From: Catenaria anguillulae PL171
Taxonomy: Eukaryota; Blastocladiomycota; Blastocladiomycetes; Blastocladiales; Catenariaceae
Reading direction: 5' to 3'
Length of the DNA stretch: 64,000 bases
Assembly: GCA_002102555.1 (NCBI GenBank)
Contig: MCFL01000036.1
Span: 62,001-126,000 of the forward strand
Position numbers and translations under genes: made by a program. The notes beneath the pieces were generated by a model. It worked only from the letters and a program-made list of their open reading frames with translations, did not search any database and was not told the DNA's origin. Numbering within the stretch: position 1 is the stretch's first letter; each line of letters begins with the position of its first letter. Shown one piece after another: positions 3,916 to 63,076 of this stretch.

Positions 3916-6900
3916 ATGGCTGCTGCAGACACGTCCCTCCCGCCAATCGTGGCCGTTGTCGAGGCGCTATTCGACTATGCCGCTCAAGAGCCAAACTGCA
4001 TCGACATTCGCAAAGGGGACATACTCTATGTGCTCGAAAAGCATGAGACGGGATGGTGGGAAGGCATCAACCCAAACGCCATCGACCATGTGAATGCTCG
4101 AGGATGGTTCCCGTCAAACTTTGTCCAACCACTACCGACACCGCCCCTACCTACATCACTTGTCGGCGCACCACCGAACGCTTCGTCCTCCCCTTCAGCC
4201 GCATCGGATCGGCCGCAACCGACAGTTGACACATCTGTTGCCTCAGCGGGCAAAAAGGGTGACGACCAGACCGAGGTCATTTCGCCGTTGCAGGCCGCAG
4301 CAGCAACAGCACACTTGCCAAAGGAGGCCACTCTGCGCAAGCGCGATCGGCCACAGTCCATTGTTCCAATATCCGCCGCTTCTTCGCCCGTCTTGGTCAA
4401 CGCGCCGGTCAATTTGAGCGGCAGAATGGAAGGAATCGCAGAGGTTGGGACATCGAACCAGTCAGTGTACAGCTCGGCACCCATGCTTTCTTTGGTACTT
4501 GCAGCACTGCTCTCTCTGCTGCCGTTCGGTTCAGGTGTTGGCTCACTTGGGCAAGTTTGGAATCCGCAGAACAAACCCGCTGCAGTATCCACCGACGCGC
4601 ACAAGGGCGAATCGATCCCAGCAGATCAGCTGCCGCCAAACTGGCGAGCCCGAACGACTCCTGACGGACAAGTGTACTATTACAACATCTTGACCAACGA
4701 GACAAAGTGGTCCATGGGATCCGAACCGAGCTTGTCCGAAAGCACAGATGAGGGAGAGGTATTGCTTCCCATCTACAGTATCATCGCTTTTGAAAGTATT
4801 CTCACCAAAGATTGCGTCTAGTTTCGGAAACGCAAAGACTCGTCTTTACTGTCCAGCATGACACTTGCAAGCCCTCATGTTGCAAACTCGGACCCGTCCG
4901 CCGCCGCCAACGCTGCGCTCCAAAAAGCGAGTTCCCGCGACAACATTCAAGCCGGCGGTGCTCCAACCTGGGAAATGCTCATCTCAGCCATCATCCACAC
5001 CATCTCGGACCTCAACACGTCGGCAAAAGCAAACGAGAAGCCAAAGTTTGTGCCCCTCACGCAGAATATTGTGCAAGCCGTCCATGACATGCTGCTGGCA
5101 TCGGGGACCACATCCAAATCGTCACGTCCGCTGCAAAACAACATTCAGCTCAAGTCGTACCACCATCAGCTGCTCTCCGCCGTGGCCAAGCTCATGCTCG
5201 CGGCTCGAGTCGCGTCGGGTGTGTGGCCGCCGCCCGATGCTGCAAACAAGATGCGGAATCAGGCAGGTCAAGTGCTATTGGCTATTCGCCACTTTGTTTC
5301 TGTCGCACAAGCGGATCCGTCCATTAAACTGGTCGCATTTGACAAGGCTTCGCTCGCGTCTGCTGGCGGGAACAGCACTTCAGGTAGCCATGACGAGTTC
5401 TCGCAATCTTCCACGCATCTGACGGATGCCGCGCTCGTTGCCCGGCTCGACAAGGAAGGTGCATCGATCTCTGCCCATCTGGCTGGTGTCCTCGCCAACC
5501 TGGCCGTCGGCGGGACAAGCCCCGGCCCTGTGCAAGCGGAAGTCATGACGAGTACGCGGGACGCTGTCATCAAGGTGGGGCAATTACTCTCTCTATTTGA
5601 AGACTTTCAAATTGTTGTTCGGCCAGAGGACACGGCCATGGCCGCACTCGTCAACGACTACCGCGCCAAACGCGACAACTTGTATGCGCTCGTCAACGAC
5701 CTGGTGACCGCGGTGCGCACGTGTATGGACGAATTTGCACCCCCAATGCCGCCAGTACTTGCTATCTGCGTCTGCAGGCGTACACAAGGGCGTGTCGGAA
5801 ACCATCACGGCGGCCAAGCTTGTCCTTGAGGAAAAGGCGGCGTACGAGACAAATGTCTGCAAGGTGCCGTGACAATGATCGAAGAGAACAAGCGTGACAG
5901 TGACTTGAGTATTTTGCAACGAAGGGCCATGTCGCTCAACTTTTTGCCACTCGCAAACATGCCGCCGTCAGGATCCATGTCGAGCATTAACAGCAACCAT
6001 GGCGGGTGGTAATCACGGGGGCAGTCTGTGCCGGATACACCGTCACACCCACATCCACCGGGTTCAGGTCGCATTTGGGCAGCAATGCGGGTGGGTATGT
6101 GGGTGGGCCATGGGAAGTGGAAGTGCCAGTGGGACAGCAACGCCTCCAATTGCCGAGGGAGGTAGCGGGCAGTCTCACTTGTTGCCACCGAGAACATCAA
6201 GCTCTCAGTCGCACACGGGCGTGCCTGCAGCAAAGGCGGGCGGCGGGCTGGATGTTGGCGAAGACGACAAGCGGACACGGAGGGTCACAGCCGATTTCAA
6301 GATGCGTTCACCTGGATCGGGCACATTACAGTCGAGTGGATCTTCGTCGTCGCTTGACAGTTCAAAGTTGACCAAGTTTTTCGGTGCCGACCAAGCTGTG
6401 CTTTCTCGATCAGCTGCAACAACGTCCAATAGCCGGGTCAAGAAAAAGTGGTTCCTCGAGTATGACTATGGCCATGGCGACATAACATTCAACATGGAGG
6501 GTCAGGTGTCAGGTGGAACCATTGCCGCGCTTGTTGAACGACTCACTCTGCACGACACGACCATTGACCCAACGTTCCTACAAGCCTTCTTGCTCACTTT
6601 CCGATGCTTTACGACGCCAAAGGAGCTCTTGAACCAGCTCGAGCACCGCTTTTCACTAACCATGCCTGAGGGCTTGTCCAAGGAGGAAGAGGAGGAATGG
6701 CAAAACAAGAAGCAAACCCCGATTCGGCTCCGTGTCTTCAACGTCTTGAAGCTGTGGCTCGATAACTACTATGTCGACGCGCAGACGACGTGATTCTGAC
6801 CGACATGCAAACCTTTGCGTCCAAAGTCATGGAACCTGCCATGCCCGGGCCAGCCAAGCGAGTATTGGAATTGGTCACGCGGCGAGCGGCTACCGTTACG

Positions 6901-33189: not shown

Positions 33190-35103
33190 ATGTTACCTTC
33201 CCCGAACCACGTAGCGGCCCCAACTTATGGCCAGCCAAATTTCCAAACCATTCTTCGCGAAACTGCTTCGAATCCAAAGCCATGGCTCCATCTTCCTGCG
33301 GAGCTCTGGTTTCTCATCATACGCGCGATTGTGGACCATGAATCCCACGTCGGCCGGTGGAGAGACCTGTTACACCTCTCTTGGACTTGCCGAAATGCGC
33401 ATTCCGTTGCTCAACCATTCAAATGGCGGACGCTCACTCTCGTTTTCGGAACAGAGTGCTCGCCGAGCTCGCCCACGCCTTCCGATCGTGTCCTACCAAT
33501 CCTGCCTCGTTTACTCTGTCACCGTCGTTCCCACTCCAACCCGTTGACCACTGTAGTCGTTGATCCAGCTCACGCATTGCTCAGCAGCGTGTGCAAGTTA
33601 CCTCATCTGGCCCTCCATGGGCGATTGTACTTGGTTGGTACACACTCTCGCACGGAAGAGCCTGGACCAATTGTTCTTCATCCTTGGCCGGCCAAGTGGA
33701 CACGGCAAGTGGTTGTGCACGACCAATGTGCGAATGTCTGTGGCGACGCAGGTATGATGCACCGAGCCGCACCACAGCTGCTCAAGACCTTGTTGTCGTG
33801 GTTGGGCAACCGGATCAAATCGGTGCGAATCGTAACCGGAAGTGGCGGCGGTTTCCTTGACGCCATATGGGCCGACGCATTGCATTCCTTTAAATCGAGC
33901 TTCGCATCAGACATTATTCGGCCCCCTCTTACGAATCCGATACCATTCCTTGTCCACTCATCACCCTCTTCTTCAATCGCCCACTCCCTCGTGTTGCATT
34001 CGTCTGGTGCTGCCAGTCACTCTCAGGCACTCCGTCACACATTCCCATCGCTGGTTCGACTCGTCAAAGACCTCCAACTCTACGGCTCGTTTGACTTTGT
34101 CTTCAGCGAATGGCACGGCTGGCTCCCATCCATTACCAGGCTCTTTTCCAACACCATCTTGTCGTCGCTCACGTTGCACATTCGCCTGCCGCTCAAGCAA
34201 TGGACGCTGCATCAGTCGCACGAGTTTCCAATCCACATGCCGGCCCTCGTGTCGCTTTCGCTGTCATTCGACGCGGCCACTGCACTCTTTATGCAAGTCG
34301 ACCAATCCAGCAAGATGCGCGCATTTCCGGCCCTAACGCACCTCGAACTATCAGATCAATTCTCGGAATCCATTGCGGGCGAATCATTCATTCGTGTCCC
34401 ATACATTCCATTCAAGCACATGCCCAACCTAGCGCATTTCCAAGTGCACCAGTCGCAATCCACATCGTTATTCCACGCGCTCCACGTCGACCATGTTGCG
34501 GGCCTCGCGCAATGTCCCAAACTTGTCTCGCTTCGTTTGCCTGCTGTGCGCCAAGTCTTCACGGACAATTGGACACCGCCACCGCATTTTCTACATCACA
34601 TGCAAGACGGTCAAGCGTACCCTTTCCTTTCCGGCATTCGCGAAATGGAGCTTGGTGAGCTCGCGCTCAATTCACAGAGCGACACGGTGGATCTACCGTT
34701 TTCGTGGACGCAGTCGGTGGCGGCTGCGACCAGGCTCGTGTACCATTGCCATGGCGACTGCTCACTACCAGGCATTCAAGCCGATTCGACCATCGCGCTG
34801 TATCCCAAGTTGACCCAGGTCGCGATCCATGCATCGACTGGATCCGCCACAGCTGCGTTCTTTCAGCGGTTGGCAGTTGGCACGCCGAATTTGGCCAGTG
34901 TATGCGTGTACGCCCGCACTTTGGACACTGAGCAGGAATGGGAAAAGGTCGAGATGCCGCCCAATCTGAGGTTGGTGTCGCTCAGCTTGGGCGATCGCGG
35001 TCAAAGTGGCGAGGTTGAAAAGGTGTTGAGACGGCTCAGATTGCCAGAACTGTGTAAGGTGAGAGTCAATTTTGGCGTCAGGTGCGAGTCTTGTGTGGTT
35101 TGA
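33190..35103 (+). CDS. F-box-like protein, hypothetical
   Basis: Single-exon frame of 637 aa. Residues 35-80 read as an F-box-like helix set: LHLPAELWFLIIRAIVDH, then LLHLSWTCRNAHSVAQPFKW. The W-R-x-L-T-L strand that follows is typical. The rest has irregular leucine-rich units without a clear repeat consensus (FPALTHLELSDQF; LVSLRLPAVRQVF; LASVCVYARTL). If the F-box is real, the protein would be a substrate adaptor for an SCF ubiquitin ligase through SKP1. No intron is needed. The start at 33190 is the first Met of the frame, but the F-box lies about 35 residues in, so a slightly later Met is not available. Confidence 0.65.
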   Translation: MLPSPNHVAAPTYGQPNFQTILRETASNPKPWLHLPAELWFLIIRAIVDHESHVGRWRDLLHLSWTCRNAHSVAQPFKWRTLTLVFGTECSPSSPTPSDRVLPILPRLLCHRRSHSNPLTTVVVDPAHALLSSVCKLPHLALHGRLYLVGTHSRTEEPGPIVLHPWPAKWTRQVVVHDQCANVCGDAGMMHRAAPQLLKTLLSWLGNRIKSVRIVTGSGGGFLDAIWADALHSFKSSFASDIIRPPLTNPIPFLVHSSPSSSIAHSLVLHSSGAASHSQALRHTFPSLVRLVKDLQLYGSFDFVFSEWHGWLPSITRLFSNTILSSLTLHIRLPLKQWTLHQSHEFPIHMPALVSLSLSFDAATALFMQVDQSSKMRAFPALTHLELSDQFSESIAGESFIRVPYIPFKHMPNLAHFQVHQSQSTSLFHALHVDHVAGLAQCPKLVSLRLPAVRQVFTDNWTPPPHFLHHMQDGQAYPFLSGIREMELGELALNSQSDTVDLPFSWTQSVAAATRLVYHCHGDCSLPGIQADSTIALYPKLTQVAIHASTGSATAAFFQRLAVGTPNLASVCVYARTLDTEQEWEKVEMPPNLRLVSLSLGDRGQSGEVEKVLRRLRLPELCKVRVNFGVRCESCVV

Positions 35104-50146: not shown

Positions 50147-51365
50147 TTAAAGTGTTGGCAACAAGATACCAAAGCCAACCATGAGCAGGATAAAGGCGAT
50201 GGTCCCCATCGTTGGCAATGAACGCGGCGCGCTCGAAGCAGAGGATGCATCTGTGCCAGATCTGGCAGCGGCATCGGCCGAGCCGCCAGCAGCGGGCGGC
50301 GTGGGCGTGGGCGTCGCGACGCCAAACGTGATTCCACCACTGCCCGAGGCGGAAGTGGGGATGGGAGGTTTCGGCTTGGGAGTGTATGGTACATTGTTGA
50401 GACCTGCAACGACTTGGAGAATGTCTCCGTGTTCGTAAAAGTCTGCGAATACCACACCAAGTTAGTCGCCACGCTACAAGATTGAACAGACAGTGTAAGC
50501 AGAGCGACGTACCAACGAGCACAAAATTGATCTTTTGCTTCCTTACCGACTCACACCGACTGACATGCGTTCTCAATTCACTCGCCACATTGACTGTCTT
50601 TGCATTTTCTGCATCGGGTGAATCAAACCCAAAGACCGACTTGTACAACCAATGGTTCACCAAGACGAGCTCGCGCGGCTGGCCCCTGGGCCGATCCAAT
50701 GCACATGTCCAATCCGCTTCCTGCCGCAACTGGAATGGAGTCTCACTAATGTATGCAAAATGCGGCATGACGAGCGGAAGCGGCTGACCCGCAGGCGGCG
50801 CAGGCAAGTCGGACGCAAACAAGAGCAGGCGCTTGTTGCGCGAAATCATGTCGCCAAGCGTTGGCCACGCGCTGGGTGTCCCTGGCGGTTGCGAATAGGC
50901 GAGCGGCGTCAGGCCAGAGGTCGAGAGCAAGTTGGCGAAATCGGCATAGCTTGCCTTGGCTGCATTTTCGACAATGACGGCAACCACCTCGCGCGAACCA
51001 GCAGGCGAGGTCAGAAAGTCACGAATGGTGCGGAATGCGGAAATGGCGGGGCCATTGTCGCCCAGGGCACACGATCCATGGCACAGCCGCAGTTCTGGGG
51101 TGCCCGAGGAGCTGTTGAATTTGTGGATATCAATGTTGATGAGGCGAATGCCCTGGTCGAGCTGGGTCGAGATGTTTGTAAATTGGGTGGCGCCGAGACC
51201 ACCAGCAGAGGCAAACGAGTTATGGGTGCCTGCAAATGTGACTTGGGTGATGGGCTTGGAACATAGGGATGCGTGGCCGTTGCATGCTTGCGCTTGCGCT
51301 TTGGCTTGGGTGAGCAATGTGGCGATGGCAACAAGTGCCAGAGTCGTGATAGTCAGTCGATTCAT
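50147..51365 (-). CDS. Secreted PI-PLC X-domain phosphodiesterase with C-terminal membrane anchor
   Basis: Two exons (51365-50513 and 50442-50147) with a 70-nt intron give 382 aa. A signal peptide (MNRLTITTLALVAIATLLTQ) is followed by a bacterial-type PI-PLC X domain. TFAGTHNSFASAGG carries the first catalytic His (about residue 47) and LRLCHGSCALG the second. REVVAVIVENAAK and NKRLLLFASDL are core strands. Pairs of Cys suggest a secreted protein. After residue about 300 the chain is Pro/Thr/Ser/Ala-rich and ends with a hydrophobic segment (MGTIAFILLMVGFGILLPTL), compatible with a TM or GPI anchor. There is no Y or C2 domain, so this is not the eukaryotic signalling PLC. The substrate is not known. 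Confidence 0.85.
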
Positions 51366-52014
51366 TTGAATTGTCAATGTTCGTGTCGGATGGTTGAAAT
51401 TTGCTGACTGGGTTGGGTTGGACTGGATGGGTATCGAGTGTAGCTGTATATAGTTGATGGAATGGTCTATGTGGAATGTGGAATGCATCGAATGGGGTCC
51501 ATTTTCTGAAATATACAGAGTATCTTTACGAGTGGAGTCAAGAGTCAAGCCACAACGAGGCAGTCCTGCGGGCAACGTGCAGATCCTTTGTGGCGTTGGA
51601 TGATGGGCCGTCGATTCGACGTGAGCCAAGATTCCATCCATTTTTTTGCGTGTTCCCCGACTCCCAAGCACACGACAGACCGGTTCATTCTCTGAAACCA
51701 CAGATAGGTTTGGTTGGTACCATGCATTTTTCAATCCGCCACAATCACCAGCACCAGCACCAGCACCCAGCGCGCCATGCATACCCGAAATCACCACGGT
51801 TCCTCGGTTCCTCGCACACCGCTGTCATGCCTCACGGTCGAACCTCTGCGCCGACTGGCACCATGATGGAACCGAAGAAGAACCACTCTCAATTCAACCT
51901 CTTGTCGCTCGCTCGTCTCGTCTCTTTTGCCTGGGCAAAGCGCGCAATCCACAGCTTTGACTGACTGTCCTGGGCCGCTCCCTCCCCAACCACCCAATTC
52001 TACTACAGCCCAAA
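51366..52014. other. Divergent intergenic PI-PLC / RPS5
   Basis: About 650 bp. A small CAGCAC repeat (about 51747-51765). No separate gene supported. Likely contains the RPS5 promoter. Confidence 0.5.
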
Positions 52015-53157
52015 ATGTCTCTTCCCGTCGAGATCGTCAACCACGACCAGAACGAGGCGCCCAAGCTCTTCGGCAAGTGGTCCTTCGAGGAGGTCCGCTG
52101 CAACGACCTTGCCCTCGTCGTACGTGCCTTTTTTGCCTTGTACAGTTGCTCCAGAGTTGCCGCCGTTGTCCCAGCACCATTCAACTGTTCTCGTCGGTTT
52201 GTCTCGTTTGGGAACTGGGGAGTATCGAGCCAGCCTGTTGCGTAGCGATTTCGCTGTCCAAGCGTGCTGCATGTGTAGCCGAAAAGGGATTGCCATCAAG
52301 AAGTCGAATGAGCTTGAGCGCTGCCCACAACTCGCTCCACTTTTTGATGTCCCTTGCACACGGTTTTCCGCAAACGCTCGTCCGACTTGGACACCGTCGC
52401 TTGGAATCAGACTCAATGTCCTTGCGTCTCTTGGCGTGGGCAGGTTCGAATGCTGCCGTGACGACCGTCCACTCCTTGGTTGCACGCTCGCCCTTTCCCG
52501 TCCACGCACACACATCGGTCAACACCACGCACCCACATGTCCTTTTGCCTCGTTCACGCTCCCAAAACCAAAAGGCAACTCCGCAGCAACAGACGGATTC
52601 CTCCACAAAACTCGTGACGCGTGATGCTAACTCATCACTTTGACCACAATCAACAGGACTACATCCAAATCTCGTCGCCCATCTACCTCCCCCACACTGC
52701 CGGTCGCTATGCCGCCAAGCGTTTCCGCAAGGCCCAGTGCCCCGTGGTTGAGCGCTTGACCAACTCGCTCATGATGCACGGCCGCAACAACGGCAAGAAG
52801 CTCATGGCCACGCGCATTGTCAAGCACGCGTTCGAGATCATTCACTTGCTCACGGATGCCAACCCGCTCCAGATCCTTGTTGACGCCGTTGTCAACACTG
52901 GTCCCCGTGAAGACTCGACCCGCATTGGTTCCCAAGGTACCGTCCGTCGTCAAGCCGTCGATGTGTCGCCCCTTCGTCGCGTCAACCAGGCCATTGCCCT
53001 CTTGACCACTGGTACCCGCGAGGCTGCTTTCCGCAACGTCAAGACCATTGCCGAGTGCCTCGCCGACGAGTTGATCAACGCCGCCAAGGGTTCGTCCAAC
53101 TCGTACGCGATCAAGAAGAAGGACGAATTGGAACGCGTGGCCAAATCCAACCGCTAA
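52015..53157 (+). CDS. RPS5: 40S ribosomal protein S5 (uS7)
   Basis: Exons 52015-52119 and 52657-53157 give 201 aa, normal for eukaryotic uS7. Exon 1 encodes [20 protein letters not shown] and [15 protein letters not shown]. Exon 2 starts [20 protein letters not shown] and contains the universal uS7 stretches [60 protein letters not shown] and the end [18 protein letters not shown]. The protein binds the 18S rRNA head near the mRNA exit. The 537-nt intron is far longer than others in the window. Codon use is strongly C-ending (for example CGC, AAG, GTC), as expected for high expression. Confidence 0.97.
52120..52656 (+). other. Long (537 nt) first intron of RPS5
   Basis: GTACGT donor and CAACAG acceptor. 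ORFs inside are not convincing. I could not find a clear C/D or H/ACA box set by eye, but ribosomal-protein introns often host snoRNAs or regulatory elements. Confidence 0.8.
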
Positions 53158-55338
53158 GTGGTCAATTGCCCCTTTTTTCGTGTCAATTGGAGTTGTTTTG
53201 TTCACGCATTCGCGTCCGAGTGAGCTGACGTTGTGGGATCACGCGTCACGCCAACCCTCCAATTCTATGACCGCCAAAATGCATGTCTTCTATGTTTATC
53301 CTTGGCCTTGTACTTCAAACACACACTACGTGTTGCTGGAGGCCGCTTGTGAAAGCCGTGTCATGTTCAAAACAAAATGTTGTGAAAACCAGAGTCACGC
53401 CGTTCATGAGTGCACGCATGACCGGATGTGCTTCCAGCCGCAGACGTGTATCTTCTGGACTGAGGGCCGAACAGCGGCCCACTGCCATCACCGGGCCAGA
53501 GGGACCGGGTTGAGCAACTGGTAATACAACATCCCATGCATCACTGAGGTTGATGCATACCAGTAGGAGCGAGTACAGATAATTGCATGGCTAGGGTATA
53601 GCAGACAAGCCGTCATGCCGTTTCCCATGGCATGAACGGCGAGTCTCGGTCTTCATGACATACCTAGATTCCCGCACATCGTACGAGAGCATAGCTGGCA
53701 GCAGCGCTCATCGCTCAGGGTCTGAGAGCAACCCGCGGACGGCTCCGCCGCCCGAAACCAAAGGTATAAGTACCGAGCTGTTCCCCCCCCCCCCCCAAGG
53801 TGTTGGAAGGAACAGTAACCCGACTGCTGTATTATTCGCACACACACAATCCACATTCATACACATTCATTCCCGACTTCAAGACGTGAAATCACAACAC
53901 AAAAAGAAAAAAAAAACTGACAACAACAACTCGACACGCCCGCTGCAGTCGTCTTTGCCACCCTCTCGTGGGTACTTAAACTGAATCCGAAGACGCAGCG
54001 ACCAAAGGCCTGCCCAAAGGTACCCGGCGGCACAAGAAGGGTTCCTTGAGATGGATCACCAGCTATGACATTTACAAACAGACATGAGTCAGGATAATGA
54101 ATGCATCCAAGCGTTCAAGTTGGCAATGGACAACGGACGGGACGTACTCTTGGGGCGAACTCACATCACGACATGACCGCACCATCCCACTGCGACCACG
54201 ACGCACGGCATCTTGTACTCGACTTCATGATTCCTTGAATGTCCCGTCGTCTCCGTTGCGCTTGAGGGGGGTGTTTATGGGCCGGGCGACGGGGAGTGGG
54301 CAAACGGAATCGACGAGGAAGCAAAAGAAAAGAATGAATAATGCGTGGTGGAAGAAGCAGGGATGGAGGGGTTGGTGAAAGCGAATGGCCAAAGAGCACG
54401 ATCAAGAAAAGAGGGTTGAGAGCGGGCGGGGCGTGGCCGCAATTTGTACCTGCCTGCCTTTGCATTGGTCAGAGCTCGAGCGTCCTTCAGCAGGAGCGTC
54501 CATCCACGCTGCGGCACACGACACACAACGCCACAACGAGATCCGGAGAGAGTCGGGATGGATGCCGCCCTCGAAACGAAAATAGGTACTGTATGGTGTC
54601 TCAAGCGTTGGGAAAAGAGCAGTTGTGGCGATGGGCGTGCCCCAAAACGTGCACCAGAGGCACTTACCCGCTCAGTGTCATCCGAGATGTGTCATCACTC
54701 TTTACCTGCGTGGCTGCACCACCTGAAAACAGCAGTCTCACGTTCGTGTCTCACTAGGGTTTGTCTACGTCGGCGCGCGCTGTCTCTCGCGGTTTCGCGT
54801 GGCGTGGTTATTCGTGTCAGTTGATTACTCTTGCCATGGCCACTTACTTGTTCCCTGGATATGGAAAACAGACTCGCTCAGCGTCTGAAAGCGCTGCTCA
54901 CGGATATACATTCGGTACAATGGCTATTCAATTTGTCATGGGCGACGGACTGGGACACCAGTGGGCAAACCTGTCGTGTGCACCAGAACCAGTGGCGTGG
55001 CACATACATCATCCTTGGCGGACGCCCACCTACCTATACGCCCGCCAACACGACAATCCGTCCGCCAACGATACGCCCGCGAGTTGCGTGAGGAACCAGA
55101 GTGCGAGCCAGTTCTTGTATCGCTCTTTCAAGTGACATTTTTACCCGTGATCCTGTATGTGAATACCAATGCACACAAGCGCTTTTTTTCCCGCCTGCGC
55201 GCGAAAGACAACAACGGCGCCCGACTGACCCTCATCCATTTTGCCATTGCCCATTTCCCACGTACACAGTCACAAATTACAATTGTGTCCTTCTTCCAAG
55301 ACCCAATCAAATCCACCCGCCCACTTCAACAACCAACC
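53158..55338. other. Gene-poor region between RPS5 and the Fanzor gene
   Basis: About 2.2 kb without a supported gene. It holds a C14 tract at 53783-53796 and a purine-rich run (AAAAAGAAAAAAAAAACTG) near 53900. The ORFs on either strand show no domain. The left part belongs to the RPS5 3' flank. The right part (54.8-55.3 kb) is the 5' flank of the Fanzor gene and could include the left end of its element. No terminal inverted repeat was found by eye. Confidence 0.5.
53783..53796. repeat. Poly-C (14) tract
   Basis: Uninterrupted run of 14 C. Confidence 0.9.
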
Positions 55339-57528
55339 ATGATGGCCACTGGTCACGCTGCTGCTCCCCAAACCGCCTCCTCGCCCGCCGCACCGTCGTC
55401 GAGCTTTGACCAATCGCATGCCGTTCCCATGCACACACACATTCGCCTCGCCAACCCGAGCGCGCTGGACAGCCAATTTGGGATGAACGTTTCGGCGTTG
55501 GGCCGCGTGACGGGGGAGCAACGGACCGGGTTCGTGTTTTCGGCCCGGCTGCTGGAGGAGCAAGTCGTGTGCATTGCACCAATCGTGACGTCGGCCGACC
55601 GTCGCGGGGAGCATTTCGTGGCCTTTCACCCCGAGGCTACGCAATCGTTCCTCAATTACCATGGGGCTGAGGTGCGTCTAGTCTCACACCCATCCTTGAT
55701 CGTGTTGCAAGATGGTCACCCTGACATGTCTTGGTTGACCAGGTCACGTCCAACCTATGGGACAAGGCGCACAAGGATGGCTCCACGATGCTGACCGAAA
55801 GGTGCACGGCCACGCTCGAGTTTGCGCCTGGCGCGACAGTGACAGATCGCCGCGCGGCGCTCGACTCGGCCAATGCCATGTTGCGCGACTTGCGCAAAAT
55901 GTCGGCCACCGCCTTCAATCTGGCCTCGACCCTCTGCGCAGCGCGGGTGACGGCCAACCCTGATCCGACCGAGCCGTTGGACTTCAGCCGCATTGCCATG
56001 CAAGCATTGGTTCGCCGTGACCAGCGGCATGTGGGCCTTCAGCATGTGGGCGCTCACATGTCCCACCTCGTAACCTCGGCAGTGGCTCTGTTTGCAGCTG
56101 AACAGGCTGCGACCGCCTGGTCGACGCTCAAGCGGTCGCCCACCACCAACCACGTGGCCATTCCCCTTGTTGATGGCATGGACCAGACCAAGTACTTCCG
56201 CCTTGGCTCGGCTCACCGTCGCAAGCACCACTGTGCGCGCGTCGTCCAAAACGTATGCAAACATTTCCGTTGCATTTGCCATTGCTGGTGCATTCGACAT
56301 TGACCATTTGACCTGCAATCCCACGCCTTCCAATCAGGATGCTGGCCAGTGGACGCTCCGCATTGTGAACGCGTCCAACCACCACAATCGCGAGCCAGTC
56401 CTCCTGTCCTTTGTGCTGGACTCGACGGGCCAAGCAATGGCCAATGCTGCAGTGGCACGTGGTGAGGACATGCTCGAGTTTGGACCGTTGGTCCGCGGCC
56501 GCGCCCAGCGCTTGGAGCTGCTTGTTCCACGCGAGGTGCGTGTGCAAGCGCTCAAGGACGCCCAAGCCCTCAAGGACGACAAGTTGCTGGCCAACGCAGG
56601 CCCAGGCCAGGAGGCCGAGGAGTGGTTGGAGGTGGACAACGATCAGCTTGCCGAGTACACGATTGGCCGTGGTGCCGCAATCGACATGGGCGCGCGCGAT
56701 TTTGCACACATTGCCTTCACCAATGGTGTGTGCGTGCGGATTGGCGTGCGGACGGCATCGGTCACAGAGGCGTTCCATCGCCGGTTGGATGCATTGGCGG
56801 CTGAAGAGGCTGAGGTGCGGCGTGTGTTGGCGGCCCTTCATCCAAACGGTGTGGGCAAGGGCATGGCGCACAAGCACTTGGGCGTGGACCGGGTGACGTT
56901 TGGGCGGCTCCGTGACCACCATCACCGCCGCCTGCGCCACATTGGCATTGAGCAGCGCGACATTCGGCGCCAAATCGCCTCGCTCGTATCAACCTTGCAC
57001 CGCACAGTGCTCCAATTCGTGCGCGACAATGCCCGGTTTGTCGTCGTGGGCCGGTTCAACACTGCGTCCATGATTTTGTCGCGTGAGGGAGCCACTCGGC
57101 TCAACAATGCCGCTGCCACTGCACCTGCCGCCACCACCACCGCTGCCCCTGCAAAGGCCAGCAACTTGCACCCATCGGTCAAGCGTGCGCTGCTGGACCT
57201 CCGGGTCAGCCAATTTGTCGACAAGCTTGTCAAGGGTGGCACGGTCGTTGGCATGCTCGTGGCGACCATTGACGAGTCGTACACGTCCAAGGCGTGTGCA
57301 GCTTGCGGCGCCTTCAACGACGTTGGCTCCCGCAAGGAGTACCACTGCACCCACTGTGGTGCCATGCTGGACCGGGACGCCAACGGCGCCCTCAACATTT
57401 GGCGCAAGTGGGTTGGTGACTTGCACCTCCATGGGCAGCGGGCTCCGATCCGGGTTTGGATACCGCGGCACTTTGTTGTGCAGTGTGCTGGCGCGTCGTC
57501 CGAGTCGATCCGCTATCGTTCCACTTGA
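55339..57528 (+). CDS. Fanzor (eukaryotic TnpB-like RNA-guided DNA endonuclease), intact
   Basis: Exons 55339-55671, 55743-56252 and 56338-57528 give exactly 678 codons (677 aa). Fanzors use an element-encoded RNA to cut DNA with a RuvC domain. The N-terminal 390 residues are helical or beta without known enzyme motifs, as expected for REC and WED-like parts. RuvC-I is AAIDMGARDFAHIAF (D397). RuvC-II is the strand FVVVGRFNTASMI, where the canonical Glu position is occupied by R520. ATIDESYTSKACAACG has D593/E594 just before the zinc ribbon. Cys601, 604, 618 and 621 form the C-x2-C...C-x2-C knuckle. RuvC-III is LDRDANGALNIW (D628). An Ala/Thr-rich insert (about 536-560) sits between RuvC-II and the last helix. 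Introns exclude a recent bacterial contaminant. It lies in a transposon-rich island. Confidence 0.88.
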
Positions 57529-57970
57529 CGGCCTCTTGACCAGTTGCGCTTGTTTTGTTTACTTATTTTTTTCCTCACTGTATCTACATACTACAGTATG
57601 GTGGTTTTTGACTCCTTTGATTGGGTGTGAGGTGTGTATACCATGATCCTCCGTTTCCATCAGGACTTGCCTCAGGTAAATAATGAGTTGCAGATCTTGG
57701 GCGACATGCTCCCTTAGGTCCTGTTCGTAGTATGGAGTATTTTCGTGGACAAAAGGAATAACAAGGGTGCATGTGTCAATATGGGCTCATAATGCCTTAA
57801 GCATATAGGATCTGACAGTGCGAACAAATGTGCGAGCTCCGGTCGATCCCAAGTCATGCACAGACAGGAACAGGCAACATGCGAGACGCCGGTCTTTCTT
57901 TCTCATTGAAAATTGCTCTATACACACAATGAATGTACAATAAACACTCGAAGCACTCGACCAATATCCG
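57529..57970. other. Fanzor 3' flank, candidate guide-RNA region
   Basis: AT-rich stretch right after the stop (TTTACTTATTTTTTTCC; CATACTACAGTATGGTGG). In characterised Fanzors the guide RNA is encoded near the 3' end of the gene, so this interval is the best place to look for it. An ATATGGGCTCATAATGCC motif lies at about 57779-57796. No transposon end can be drawn with confidence. Confidence 0.4.
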
Positions 57971-58794
57971 ATGGAACGGGCAGAGAGAGCCTTGGAGCAG
58001 CGAGCCGACCCGGCCTACCTGCTCTCTGAGGAGCTCGACTCAGTCTTCGCCATAGTCTCGGCCTGCAGCGGCCAGATCCAAGACGAGTGGACGTCCTCGA
58101 CGATGCATGTACCACCGCCAGTCCGGCAAGTCGCTTCACTCAACTCATACTTACCGGCGGCCGCGCCAAGGTGGATGTGTCGATCCGAGCCGTCTTGAAC
58201 TTGCGGAACACGCTCAACTTGCCTTTTGCCGACATTGCTCGTCAACTCGACATTCACCCTGGCACACTCTCTCGTCGAATCAACGTATGCATCGTCCGGG
58301 AGCTTGTCGAGTACTCAACGATAACCGACGACGACCTGGATACGCTTGTCTCGGCGTACGCCCGGCGTCATCCGCAAGCTGGCTGGCGGCTGGCTTGGGG
58401 GTATGTACACTACAAGCTTTCGGCGTCCGATTCAGCATTTTCGAGTGCAAGAGTCCCTCAAGCGTGTGAATCCGGTGGCCGGGCTCAAACGATGGAAAGC
58501 CAAGATTACCCGCCGCAAGTACAAGGTCAAAGGGTCCATGTCATTGTGGTACAATGATGGCTGGCACAAGCTCATCAGGTGCGCTGCAGGTGGAAGCTTG
58601 TTCTGCATGGCTTTATTGATGGCTGCAGCCACCTCATCGTTGGGCTTCGAGCGCACGCCGACAACACATCCCATTCCGTTCTCGCCTTATTTGAGAATTC
58701 TGTCAAGCGATACAGAGTCCCGTGACCGCGGCACCGAAAACACACTTGTCCGTGCCGTAATGATCCGTTGTCGCGGTGCTGGGAAGCGCTCTTG
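57971..58794 (+). pseudogene. Decayed rve-type DDE integrase/transposase
   Basis: Pieces in at least three frames line up with one family. First comes an HTH-like region (NLPFADIARQLDIHPGTLSR) and VEYSTITDDDLDTLVSAYAR RHPQAG. Next is a basic linker (KRWKAKITRRKYKV) and the integrase strand GSMSLWYNDGWHKLIRC, where intact relatives have W-H-x-D-G-x-H-K-L. The last piece, VRAVMIRCRGAGKRS, resembles the strand just after the second Asp. Stops and frameshifts separate the pieces, and the middle of the catalytic core is garbled, so it is inactive. The family (DDE with WHxDGxHKL) is a poorly named group of eukaryotic integrase-like elements. Assignment is by motif only. Confidence 0.7.
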
Positions 58795-60186
58795 AGTGGC
58801 GGAACTCGACGAGCTCGTGCAGAAGCTGACGCCGCGTCGATTCGCCCAACGCCGGGCTCATGCCATGCTGCTTGCGACACTCCTGCCCATCCCAATACCA
58901 CGTCGCTGCTCGCTTGCCAGACCCGATTGGGAATCTCTACTTGCTGTTGCACTTGGTCTTTCGCTCGTGCTGATTGCAGGCTGCTCGCACATCCCTGGCG
59001 CACTGTTTCGCCCACGCCCTCAACCTTTGCCTCGCTCCGGACTCAGGCCGTGCCGCTTGTGCCACTTTGGCAGATCACATTGGTCAGCGAGCAATGCCGT
59101 GTCGCACATTGGTTGGCGCGCAATGTGGTGTTTCTCTTCTTGCTATTTCGCTCACTTTTGGCGGGATGTCTGCTACGCTGCCTGCCGTGCTGCTTGCACC
59201 ACTGCGGTCTGATCAGATGCACCCCCTCATCTTGCTCTTTCCTCGGCCCTTTACGATGGTGTGCCAAGTTGGATGCCGGGCCCATGTCGTTCTGCTTGCG
59301 CCACTCTTGCCCGTCCCAATAGGCCGTCCCTGCTCCAAGGACCTGAGCATGGGTCTCAACCTTTGATTTGGCTCTTTTGCATGTGGACCTGGCTCCAACG
59401 TGACCCGTGCTGCTTGAACCACCCGAACGGATAAAAACGGTCAGTGACCAATGCTGCATCGCTCATGTTGCTATTTCGCTGAATCTTTGCGCATTTTCAC
59501 CTGTGCTACTGGCCTCGCTGCTTTTGCGACTTTGACTCGCCAATTGCTGTACTGCTTGCCGTGCTTGCTCCTCTTTTGCACACCACATCGGTCGCTCATG
59601 TTGTGTCGCTCTTCTTGCTATTTCACTCGCTTGTCGTGGAGATGAGGCTGTGCTGCTTGCACCACTTTCGACATTTCCTTCACGTTCACGGACTCCGAAC
59701 CATGTTGCAGCATGGCGACGGAGTGGAGAGAGACTGTTGATGGACTTGATCCTGTCGCTGACAGCTGGGGTTGCCCCGTAGCAACCCAACGAGCACATGA
59801 GAGTGTGCGAGGCGGTTCTTGGAATCATCTCCCTCAATGCCACTTGCTGTGCCTTGACTCACGAATAGCGGAAGTTGCCGGGTTGGGCAATGTATGCGGG
59901 TGATGCACGTCCATTTGCAACTGGGCCAGGTTACGCCGGGCATATGGGGCTTATGCCGTACATATGGAGGCTTATGCCTGCTTATGGGGTGTACATGTCC
60001 CGCATATGCGACCGATATTGCTTTTGTCCAGAAAAAGACGCCATAGTCCATCTCATAGTAACTATAGCCTACTGAGTTCACGCGGTGCGCGCCATGTCTT
60101 TTTTTTTTTTTTTTGGCATAGAGCTGTCATATAAAGCCCATGAATTGACTCCTATGCAATCGCCGACCTGCCGCACACGGACCGTT
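58795..60186. other. Diverged tandem repeats and flanking sequence
   Basis: No gene. From about 58865 to 59670 the sequence consists of diverged head-to-tail copies of a unit of roughly 425-475 bp. For example, CTGCTTGCG..CACTC.TGCCC.TCCCAATA occurs near 58867 and 59292, and an exact 16-mer TGCTGCTTGCACCACT at 59188 and 59651. Further right (59937-60006) lie two near-copies of CATATGG(G/A)GGCTTATGCC. A T18 tract ends just before 60115. Confidence 0.6.
58865..59670. repeat. Diverged tandem repeat, unit about 425-475 bp
   Basis: Matching segments appear in the same order: the CTGCTTGCG-CACTC block at 58867 and 59292, CTCTTCTTGCTATTTC near 59133 and 59608, and TGCTGCTTGCACCACT at 59188 and 59651. 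Internal deletions separate the copies. Satellite-like or a decayed element. Confidence 0.6.
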
Positions 60187-61515
60187 ATGTCTTCCTCTTT
60201 GTCTTCCGCTTCCTCGTCCCCCAAGCGCCCTCGTACCATGGCTGCTGCTTCGACTCAGCTCTTCCTGGTCCTGAGCGACGCACTCTCGTCTTCCGCCGGT
60301 GGATCGCCCCACCCGAGCAGCAGTGACGGCGAGGACGACGACGACGACGAGCACGATGACGCCCTTGTCCCCGCCCAAGCAGGCGCGACCCTGTCCGTCA
60401 ACGAGCGCAACGTGCTCCCGGGCGGCTTCTTGATCCGCCGTCCCGGCGACAACTCCAACAAACCGCTGCCTGCGTACCGCCAACAGGCACTCAACGCATT
60501 TTCCATGTGGCTCGACCACGAGACCAGCATGCACCTGGAGCTCGCCCCGGCCGGCCCGCCCACCGCTTACTGGCAATGGATCCAAGAGAAGCGGGTAGAG
60601 TACCACGCGGGGTGGACCAAGGCCGGCCGCTCCTACTATTGCCGGTCCAAGGATCCTTGCCACAAGCTGTGGATTGATCCGGGCGTGGCTGGTGGCGACT
60701 TGGCAGCCATTCGACAGGGCTTGGCCGAGCATGCTGGGTGGACCAAGCCACTGCCCACGAGCCGGAAGGAATCGTCACGCGAGCTGGAGGCGACTCTCCT
60801 GGCGCAGCGCCGAGTCATCTACATTGATGCTCGTGCAGTGGTCAGCAAGCTCAAAGTGCTAGAGGTCTGGGTCAACTATGGCCCAATGCCTGTGGGTACC
60901 AAGCCACTGGCCCCGTTTCTCATCCAGTACACCTCGACGGACACTGCCGAACAGCTGCCAAGGGCCGGCGTGTACTTCAATCTTCGCCGCAACTCGTGCA
61001 TTCCGACGTACCTGGCGGGCAAGTGGATTGGGGCCGCGTGCCCCACTGTTGGGACATCGTCCAAGCGGATCGCCCGCCGCGAGGGCATGGAACTGGCCAA
61101 GGACTTGGTCGACAACCATTTGGGCGAGGTGCACATAAGCGAGCAGGGCCGGTTGATGGAGTTTTGGCGCATGTGCGAGGCCGACCAAATCTGCATTGGC
61201 GAGGTCATTGTGCACATGCCACACCTGCGCATCACGGAGCGTGACAAGAAGACAAAGGAGGAAAAGGTGGTGGACGTGATGGCCAACACGTGGTGTGAGC
61301 AGCAGAACGCTGCGGCCGTGGAGCAAGGAAAAGCGGCGGGGCAAGACTACAAGTTTGGGCCAGCGGTGGGCGAGAGTGACGAAGAGGATGATGTGGTGAC
61401 GTGGATTCCACACATCCCGGGACAGCCCACTGCGCAAGAGAATGCGCTCGCGGCGCAAGCCCTTGCCCTCGCCCGCCAACGTGTGGCCACCTTGCATGGT
61501 GACACTGGTCAATGA
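60187..61515 (+). CDS. Hypothetical protein within the mobile-element island
   Basis: 442 aa, single exon. The Met at 60187 (MSSSLSSASSSPKRPRTM) is preferred over 60085, whose frame begins in a T18 tract. Residues about 50-65 are an Asp run (GEDDDDDEHDD). A compact part follows with NALPVL-like hydrophobic strands, WLDHETSMHLELAP, YWQWIQEKRVEYHAGWTKAG, SYYCRSKDPCHKLWIDPG, VYFNLRRNSCIPTYLAGKWI and IAVHMPHLR-like ITERDKKTKEEKVVDVM, then an acidic linker and an Ala/Gln helix. No domain is recognised. Codon use is GC-rich at third positions like its neighbours and the frame is clean, so it is probably a real gene, possibly carried by a transposon. Confidence 0.6.
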   Translation: MSSSLSSASSSPKRPRTMAAASTQLFLVLSDALSSSAGGSPHPSSSDGEDDDDDEHDDALVPAQAGATLSVNERNVLPGGFLIRRPGDNSNKPLPAYRQQALNAFSMWLDHETSMHLELAPAGPPTAYWQWIQEKRVEYHAGWTKAGRSYYCRSKDPCHKLWIDPGVAGGDLAAIRQGLAEHAGWTKPLPTSRKESSRELEATLLAQRRVIYIDARAVVSKLKVLEVWVNYGPMPVGTKPLAPFLIQYTSTDTAEQLPRAGVYFNLRRNSCIPTYLAGKWIGAACPTVGTSSKRIARREGMELAKDLVDNHLGEVHISEQGRLMEFWRMCEADQICIGEVIVHMPHLRITERDKKTKEEKVVDVMANTWCEQQNAAAVEQGKAAGQDYKFGPAVGESDEEDDVVTWIPHIPGQPTAQENALAAQALALARQRVATLHGDTGQ

Positions 61516-62153
61516 GCTGTGCTTGTTGACCCATAGAGTTGCCTGTTTGTTACCTTGGTTGGTTCCTTGCTCCTGCTCTTGAGTTGAATTCTTTTGTTCA
61601 ATACTGTGTTTCTCTTTTCGGCCATCTTTCATTCTCTCTTGTATGCAACCAATGGCCACAACGTAGGTATGTATGTACATTGGTCAGCAAAACGTCGGCT
61701 AGAATACAATGCACACGACCAGGGCAATAGAAACATACACAGCGACAAAATTTAATTCAACACTCGTTTTACGACTGGGATTGCGCCCATTCCCATTCCC
61801 ATGCGCCCGACTCGCTGACGTCATCCACTCCATCAACGTCGAATCCGACGTTTTGGTCGTCTTCGAGGTCGACGTATTCCGGCTCCTGCGGCTAGCGGCT
61901 CTTCTCGTCGGCGGCCGTCCCTCGTCGCCCTCGCCCTCACCAGATTCTTGCGCTAACCCCTCCTGCCCCTCAACATCCATCTCGCCCGTTTCAGACGCAT
62001 CCGCTCCACCACCCTACTCCACATCCTTGTCGCTGCTGTCCGATCTGGACTCGTCCATGGCTGCGGTTCCAAGCGTCGCCGTGCTAGGACCAGGCACGTC
62101 GCCCAACGACCAATCAAAGTGTGAGAGCTTGTCCTTGCACATGAACTCGACAG
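61516..62153. other. Intergenic / hAT element 3' region
   Basis: ORFs on both strands (for example 61699-61980 minus, rich in Ser, Thr and Arg) are not recognisable. It may be the 3' part of the decayed hAT element on the minus strand. Confidence 0.4.
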
Positions 62154-62700
62154 TCAAATTTGTAAATGCGCGCCGAAATCCGTGTCGAGAAGGATCCCCA
62201 GATGAGCGCGCGACAAAGTTGTCACCAGCACGCTCCGCTCCAAGGTTTCCGTATGCAAGCGGTTGCAGGGCGAAAAGAGCGACTCGGACGGAATCGAGGT
62301 TGCTTGCATGGTGAGCATGGCGTGGGCGGCCTTGCGGATCAATGGGTATGAGGTGTTGGCGGCCCACCACTTGTGGATTTCCCGATCCAGACTGACACAA
62401 TGGTCGGCCAAGTACTTGTCAATTTCGACGGCGACTGGGTCGCCCGTTCCAATCTTTTGCCGCTTGTCCGCAGGATGGTCGTCGTCGCCAAAGAATGATT
62501 CGAGAGCTGCCGCGGACGACGACACGCGGGCGATGCGCCGAGCGTGACATTGAGGGCCAGTTGGCGGGTTAGGATTGAATTTTCGGACGACCACGCGGCT
62601 CCATCCAGGCCTTGATCTTGCGCAAGCGGACGCCGGGATGTAACACGGGCATAACCATGGCCGACTTGTGCGAATCTTGCTCCATCAAGCAGAATTGAGC
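62154..62700 (-). pseudogene. Decayed hAT-family transposase, C-terminal dimerisation region
   Basis: The minus-strand frame ending at 62154 carries the hAT C-terminal dimerisation signature: VEIDKYLADHCVSLDREIHK, WWAANTSYPLIRKAAHAML and ATSIPSESLFSPCNRLHTET. In hAT transposases these correspond to W-W-x(5-7)-(Y/F)-P-x-L-x-x-x-A and S-x-P/A-S-E-R-x-F-S. Here the usual Arg after SE is Leu. Immediately upstream, in another frame, are MVMPVLHPGVRLRKIKAWM-type residues, as in the hAT core before dimerisation. The zinc finger and the first catalytic Asp regions are absent. This is a truncated, frame-broken remnant. Confidence 0.75.
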
Positions 62701-63076
62701 CCACGTCTCCTCCTCATGCGACTGTGGACAGGCAAGGGAGCGTGGTTCCGAGGTGGCGGCAGCGAGCGGGGTGAGGCACACAGGGTGTGGCCGAGGGTGC
62801 AGGGCACTGGGGCAGTCACTTGGTAATGCAATACAATGCGAAAAGTCATAGGTTGCGAGTTGTCTCACAAGTCTTGATCGAGTGGTGGGTGAGTCGGTCT
62901 CAAGTCTCACCTTGCACTGCATGGAGTGCTCGACTCACATGGAGTGCTCGACTCACTGCTCGTGCCGATCGACTCGGGTTGCACTCGCTCATCGCACTCC
63001 GATCCATTATAATGTCGAGTGCGATTTTCGACTGAGTCGTTTGCAGAACCCTACCGCCCTCCCCATTTTCACCAAC
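62701..63076. other. Intergenic with 18-bp tandem duplication
   Basis: Contains a perfect 18-bp tandem repeat (ATGGAGTGCTCGACTCAC) at 62921-62956 and related CGACTCAC copies nearby. No gene supported. Confidence 0.6.
62921..62956. repeat. 18-bp tandem duplication
   Basis: Two perfect copies of ATGGAGTGCTCGACTCAC, head to tail. Confidence 0.95.

Follow-up and report, generated by a model that had tools for sequence, protein, structure and literature searches.

Background

Fanzors are eukaryotic proteins related to CRISPR nucleases. Allomyces macrogynus is a blastocladian fungus. Three Fanzor1 families are tabulated for it in PMC3627910, excerpts of which also give the signature D-X(125,275)-[TS][TS]XX-C4 finger-X(5,50)-RD. 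SpuFz1, a Fanzor1, has flanking 30-nt inverted repeats and a 75-nt RNA scaffold, according to excerpts of PMC10432273. The fingerprints described for Fanzors in excerpts of PMC10711439 are a RuvC-I motif DPG, near exclusive in Fanzors, and an alternative RuvC-II glutamate six residues upstream of the zinc finger. The same excerpts give a spacing of 120-160 residues from the DxG motif to the glutamate, describe long insertions in Fanzor1s and name a TDG motif in the WED domain as a Fanzor1 feature. A kinked-helix pair in REC2 and insertions in REC and WED also characterise Fanzor1. For TnpB they give a RuvC-I motif of aspartate, hydrophobic residue and glycine, with methionine among the residues listed, and place the typical glutamate about 50 residues ahead of the ribbon.

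Here we analyze a window of 64,000 nucleotides (C290:62001-126000) from the 41.07-Mb, 457-contig assembly of Catenaria anguillulae PL171. It is likely that positions 55339-57528 hold an intact, spliced, single-copy Fanzor gene of the TnpB superfamily, of the rearranged-glutamate type, whose product would work like known Fanzors. With a clean Fanzor gene, its other haplotype and an unbroken paralogue all in one genome, splicing, catalytic residues and selection can be checked without guesswork.

Gene structure, second haplotype and selection

Another contig, C454, is collinear with the window region over about 86 kb (from window position 33283 onward), in pieces that are 90-98% identical and separated by multi-kilobase insertions. 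We read it as the other haplotype, in a diploid that would be strongly heterozygous; a segmental duplication could also produce this arrangement. C198, considered as a third copy of the gene, proved to be a contig end that overlaps the locus, without a mismatch and with 22 gap openings across 50660-56297, and was therefore left out as independent evidence.

The three exons of the Fanzor gene (Table 1) join to a frame of 677 amino acids free of internal stops. As many as 144 GT/AG combinations keep the frame open in a splice-site scan, so that an open frame by itself is no proof of the splice sites. The comparison with related genes is more telling. In C454 the splice sites are identical, the frame again has 677 amino acids and the exons carry no indels, while the gene model of an intact paralogue on contig C13 has both introns at the same two positions, each in phase 0, the donors reading GTGCGT and GTACGC. 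The second of these paralogue introns has 66 bp and lies in frame; its presence is thus inferred from alignment and splice signals, as the frame does not force its removal. A decayed relative on contig C146 also shows a GTGCGT donor and a CAG acceptor at the place matching the first intron. Given the intron positions in C13 and the intact frame in C454, it is believable that both introns are spliced as modelled. Introns in Fanzor genes have reportedly been seen before. The initial annotation had proposed three exons joined to a 677-aa frame, which is confirmed here together with the two GT-AG introns, and had called the copy intact, which is borne out by an unbroken frame on both haplotypes.

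Table 1 Features of the Fanzor locus, in window positions (C13, paralogue; C290, contig of the window; C454, second haplotype)
Feature	Position	Strand	Remarks
Fanzor exon 1	55339..55671	+	codons 1-111; same exon in haplotype C454
Fanzor intron 1	55672..55742	+	71 bp, GTGCGT..CAG, phase 0; position matches C13 intron 1
Fanzor exon 2	55743..56252	+	codons 112-281
Fanzor intron 2	56253..56337	+	85 bp, GTATGC..CAG, phase 0; position matches inferred C13 intron 2
Fanzor exon 3	56338..57528	+	codons 282-677 and stop
D397, RuvC-I Asp	56683..56685	+	motif D-M-G, not D-P-G; aligned to DPG of C13
E594, alternative (rearranged) RuvC-II Glu	57274..57276	+	six residues, then first zinc-ribbon Cys; rule from excerpts of PMC10711439
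S598-K599 and C4 zinc ribbon (C601, C604, C618, C621)	57286..57357	+	PF07282 over residues 573-635
D628, RuvC-III Asp of DRDANGALNI	57376..57378	+	from residue position and PDB alignment
Fanzor 3' flank, stop to next transposon	57529..57730	+	202 bp; matches only C290 and C454
Separate DNA transposon	57731..60045	+	2.3 kb, 30-bp terminal inverted repeats (83%), integrase-core relic; outside the Fanzor unit

Between C290 and C454 the Fanzor proteins differ at 24 amino acids, and the genes differ by 28 nonsynonymous changes on 1519.5 sites and 38 synonymous changes on 511.5 sites (binomial p = 2.8e-8). The resulting dN/dS is 0.24 (NG86); for codons 381-640 it is 0.075 (dN 0.005, dS 0.069). These differences indicate purifying selection, in a test of two sequences only, and both haplotypes retain D397, E594, D628 and the four cysteines. 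Such selection speaks for a domesticated host gene, one long out of its transposon, fixed in place and maintained because of some role in the cell, such as the silencing or cleavage of foreign or mobile DNA by way of RNAs provided in trans. We regard this origin as possible but doubtful; two haplotypes from one genome say little on deep conservation.

Differences between the two sequences are unevenly spread. Within codons 526-649 (57070-57441) a single synonymous codon differs, whereas the rest of the gene differs at 34 synonymous and 24 nonsynonymous codons, and this near-identity could reflect either constraint or a gene-conversion tract, between which two sequences cannot discriminate. The C-terminal tail (codons 656-674; 57460-57516) holds 6 of the 24 changed residues and is thus apparently little constrained.

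Family assignment

Pfam PF07282 (Cas12f1-like_TNB) matches the C-terminal part of the protein, residues 573-635, with E 2.7e-14 and 53.5 bits against a gathering score of 26.3. The NCBIfam model guided_TnpB matches residues 500-638 with E 5.1e-14, yet falls below the model cut-off (52.3 vs. 100 bits). Both count in favour of the assignment. Among PDB sequences the top match is the TnpB-like protein L79 of mimivirus, at 2.6e-10 with the single sequence and 9.3e-17 with a three-sequence profile. In the PDB, Fanzor queries gave no match to the Fanzor1 structure entries listed in excerpts of PMC11423790.

Searches of a large protein database scored 8000 candidates for the whole protein (none at E <= 0.001), 43 for residues 558-642 (no relative) and 51 for a query based on the paralogue (none at E <= 10); since these searches are seeded by short exact words, absence there is weak evidence. 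In viral contigs, none of the 56 and 68 pattern matches from two scans was confirmed, the 56-match scan having used patterns drawn from a poor N-terminal stretch. For the serine recombinase of IS607 elements (TnpA, PF00239), the 41-Mb assembly gave no hit at E <= 0.001, with a control that was positive in 10 of 14 genomes.

Protein size and the fact that the assembly yielded no IS607-type recombinase favour Fanzor1 over Fanzor2. Against a placement in Fanzor1 stand the compact, L79-like ribbon, the lack of a sequence match to any Fanzor1 structure, and the missing TDG motif, which is absent from all 677 residues and occurs in the paralogue solely within a low-complexity N-terminal stretch. The broader assignment to the Fanzor/TnpB family made at the outset holds, supported by the TNB domain, D397, E594, the C4 ribbon, D628, spliceosomal introns in common with the paralogue, and purifying selection.

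Catalytic residues

D397, the four cysteines (C601, C604, C618 and C621) and D628 all lie at the residues given by the initial annotation, which did not name E594, the rearranged RuvC-II glutamate of Fanzors. An alternative glutamate six residues ahead of the zinc finger is found in the window protein (E594 and C601), in the C13 paralogue and in haplotype C454. The signature of PMC3627910 is matched as well and ends at D628, with a gap of 199 residues from D397 to T597-S598 and five residues between C621 and R627-D628. The distance from the RuvC-I aspartate to the glutamate lies outside the published 120-160 residues, at 197 in the window protein and 185 in the paralogue; a relaxed spacing fits both.

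RuvC-I reads D397-M-G on both haplotypes, off the DPG fingerprint, which counts against the Fanzor reading. The motif is DPG in C13 and also in the decayed C146 copy, so that, from this alignment, DMG is probably a derived state. The three carboxylates and the four cysteines are in place, and the copy may be an active nuclease, as the initial annotation suggested.

The departure from a near-exclusive motif, which both C13 and C146 retain, raises the possibility that the protein still binds RNA and DNA and has lost cleavage through the DMG change. We consider such a loss very unlikely, as all three carboxylates and four cysteines are kept on both haplotypes and methionine is listed at this RuvC-I position for TnpB in excerpts of PMC10711439. 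Most likely the protein is a RuvC nuclease that uses D397, E594 and D628 and carries a zinc-ribbon NUC domain.

Related copies in the genome

Five places in the assembly match PF07282, all above the cut-off: the two haplotypes, C13, C146 and C63. The C13 paralogue (C13:218721-221342) is intact and shares 31% identity with the window protein overall and 37% over residues 385-667. Common to both are the two intron positions, the zinc ribbon, the alternative glutamate, an unbroken frame and single-copy gene-proximal flanks; the paralogue differs in its length of 827 aa (model), its DPG motif, a CxxxxC spacing of the first zinc pair and a possible degenerate 21-nt inverted repeat around it. C146 is decayed, with two in-frame stops and the Glu/TSK stretch missing, and C63 is a decayed Fanzor fragment.

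Flanks of the paralogue are single-copy next to the gene, and a small repeat about 0.9 kb past its stop has two further copies. The 21-nt inverted repeat (86%; L017:3563-3583 and 6551-6571) brackets the gene. None of 60 crude shuffles and 3 of 200 dinucleotide shuffles produced a repeat as good; no target duplication was seen beside it, and it gives a weak hint of old transposon ends.

These copies bear on domestication in both directions. Two introns in common with a paralogue that itself has single-copy gene-proximal flanks speak for a host gene, whereas decayed copies such as C146 and C63 are expected of mobile-element genes, and the repeat around C13 may mark old ends. A further reading, which we consider unlikely, is that a Fanzor lineage has turned into a pair of host genes, the window gene and C13, kept by selection, with transposon ends lost and guides coming from elsewhere in the genome, so that a eukaryote would maintain an RNA-guided nuclease of its own; both introns would then predate the split of the two genes, and DMG would be derived in one.

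Flanks and neighbouring elements

In searches of the assembly DNA, matches to the 5' flank (53900-55338) were confined to C290, to C198, which overlaps it, and to C454, and the 3' flank was likewise restricted (Table 1); from 57731 onward C116 matches too. None of the 12 inverted-repeat pairs found in 53800-58200 brackets the Fanzor coding sequence, and the best candidates of a dedicated terminal-repeat scan at the gene are within chance, since 6 of 100 and 13 of 200 shuffles did as well. These DNA searches pass over short ends as well as very common words, and decayed terminal repeats might therefore be missed. The hallmark of Fanzor1, a eukaryotic transposon with recognisable ends, was thus not seen at the window locus, and the gene looks like a single-copy, conserved one without a recognisable surrounding transposon. 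A single locus, with flanks that match only itself, its haplotype and overlapping contigs and with no bracketing repeats above chance, is a further point for a domesticated gene. If the gene does lie outside any transposon and selection maintains it, it would bear on what Fanzors may do for their hosts.

Two candidate ends were rejected. A 20-nt pair with 17 matches (54312-54331 and 60199-60218) scored above 20 simple shuffles, yet in two set-ups 13 and 14 of 200 dinucleotide shuffles did as well, and no target duplication was seen beside the pair. A poly-A repeat pair that scored higher was dropped as low complexity.

Downstream, the next transposon (Table 1) has a second copy at C116:26326-28674, without a Fanzor and with a possible 6-bp target duplication, CGATCG. 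The N-terminal piece of its gene has relatives matching at 10 assembly places, itself included, and the integrase-core relic at about 58.1-58.8 kb matches Pfam weakly (E 0.036). Because this transposon runs from TIR to TIR and its C116 copy lacks a Fanzor, the integrase relic near the gene belongs to another element. That the Fanzor forms part of a transposon with this transposase relic is suggested by adjacency on the same strand and is nonetheless hardly credible, as the element is bounded TIR to TIR and its other copy lacks the gene; a Fanzor inside it is ruled out unless the gene was lost precisely at the end of the C116 copy. A link between the Fanzor and the neighbouring transposases finds no support, one of them belonging to the separate transposon. 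The description of those transposases as decayed is accurate, both for the integrase-core relic, with its weak match, and for a hAT relic farther downstream.

The latter (62157-62594, minus strand) corresponds to the C-terminal dimerisation region of a hAT transposase (PF05699, 4.8e-9) and sits inside a stretch, 61705-63053, that is unaligned with the other haplotype. Just past the transposon, an open frame of 476 aa (60085-61512) has no convincing Pfam match. On the other side, an exon of uS7/RPS5 (52621-53154; PF00177, 2.7e-43) is a useful syntenic anchor, its best PDB matches being 7r81 and 5oql, both from filamentous fungi, which points to a fungal host.

Evenly poised, in our judgement, is the reading that the gene belonged to an old transposon of low copy number, with ends since decayed or severed, for instance by the insertion at 57731, so that the protein is intact and the element immobile. 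Varied DNA transposons classically carry Fanzor1 genes, according to excerpts of PMC3627910 and PMC10711439, decayed relatives exist in the genome (C146 and C63), and the surroundings are rich in mobile DNA, with a TIR transposon 202 bp downstream, the hAT relic and large insertions between haplotypes. Yet intactness on both haplotypes and purifying selection are unexpected for the gene of a dead element, and neither ends, ghosts nor second copies were seen in the flank and inverted-repeat searches.

Guide RNA search

RNAs of known Fanzors vary in length, and finding them takes RNA-seq. At the window locus, the only native stretch directly downstream for an RNA at the element end is 57529-57730, and neither folding nor Rfam detected one there. 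The fold signal is indistinguishable from shuffles over 57529-57731 (z -0.03; 93 of 200 shuffles equally good) and is z 0.73 over 57400-57730. Folding in 110-nt windows, 114 on each strand, gave a lowest plus-strand z of -2.4, at 57210-57319, which falls inside coding sequence and does not exceed what is expected for the lowest of many windows. Rfam gave no match up to E 1 over 53000-61000. The non-coding RNA anticipated at the 3' end of the gene thus found no support, with folds equal to those of shuffles and no Rfam match, and at 57731 the other transposon reaches into the stretch proposed for it (57.2-58.0 kb), which likewise gives no RNA signal. According to excerpts of PMC10432273, the SpuFz1 RNA was identified by small-RNA sequencing; a missing fold signal is therefore compatible with a guide RNA.

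Since no guide RNA was found, RNA-guided cleavage by the window Fanzor rests on homology. Judging from the Fanzors that have been tested, it would associate with a structured RNA, recognise a short motif beside its target and cut DNA paired to the RNA guide.

Comparison with known systems

The window Fanzor is an addition to an established family, in which one odd letter of a catalytic motif and a transposon context that is not visible are unusual. The combination of DMG and a short, L79-like ribbon on a protein of Fanzor1 size offers a useful way to test which published fingerprints a Fanzor really needs.

With the Fanzor1 proteins SpuFz1, GtFz1 and PpFz1 it shares a size class of about 600-800 aa, the alternative glutamate, a eukaryotic host and the lack of an IS607 element. 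It differs from them in having DMG instead of DPG, no TDG, no match among their PDB sequences, and no terminal repeats or guide RNA found. Bacterial TnpB of the ISDra2 type and Cas12f have in common with it a C-terminus of RuvC and zinc ribbon in the Pfam TNB family. Compared to typical TnpB, however, the window protein carries a glycine at the inferred glutamate site (VVVGRF), and its E594 adjoins the ribbon; ISDra2-type TnpB scores weakly against it, at 15.3 bits.

The mimivirus protein L79 (PDB 9b0l), which is linked to ISvMimi1, matches over about 80 C-terminal residues of the window Fanzor. Its chain is shorter (520 residues vs. 677 aa), it has DPG, and its glutamate lies 143 residues past the RuvC-I aspartate as against 197, whereas the alternative RuvC-II glutamate, the 34-residue spacing from this glutamate to the RuvC-III aspartate and the C4 ribbon are the same in both proteins.
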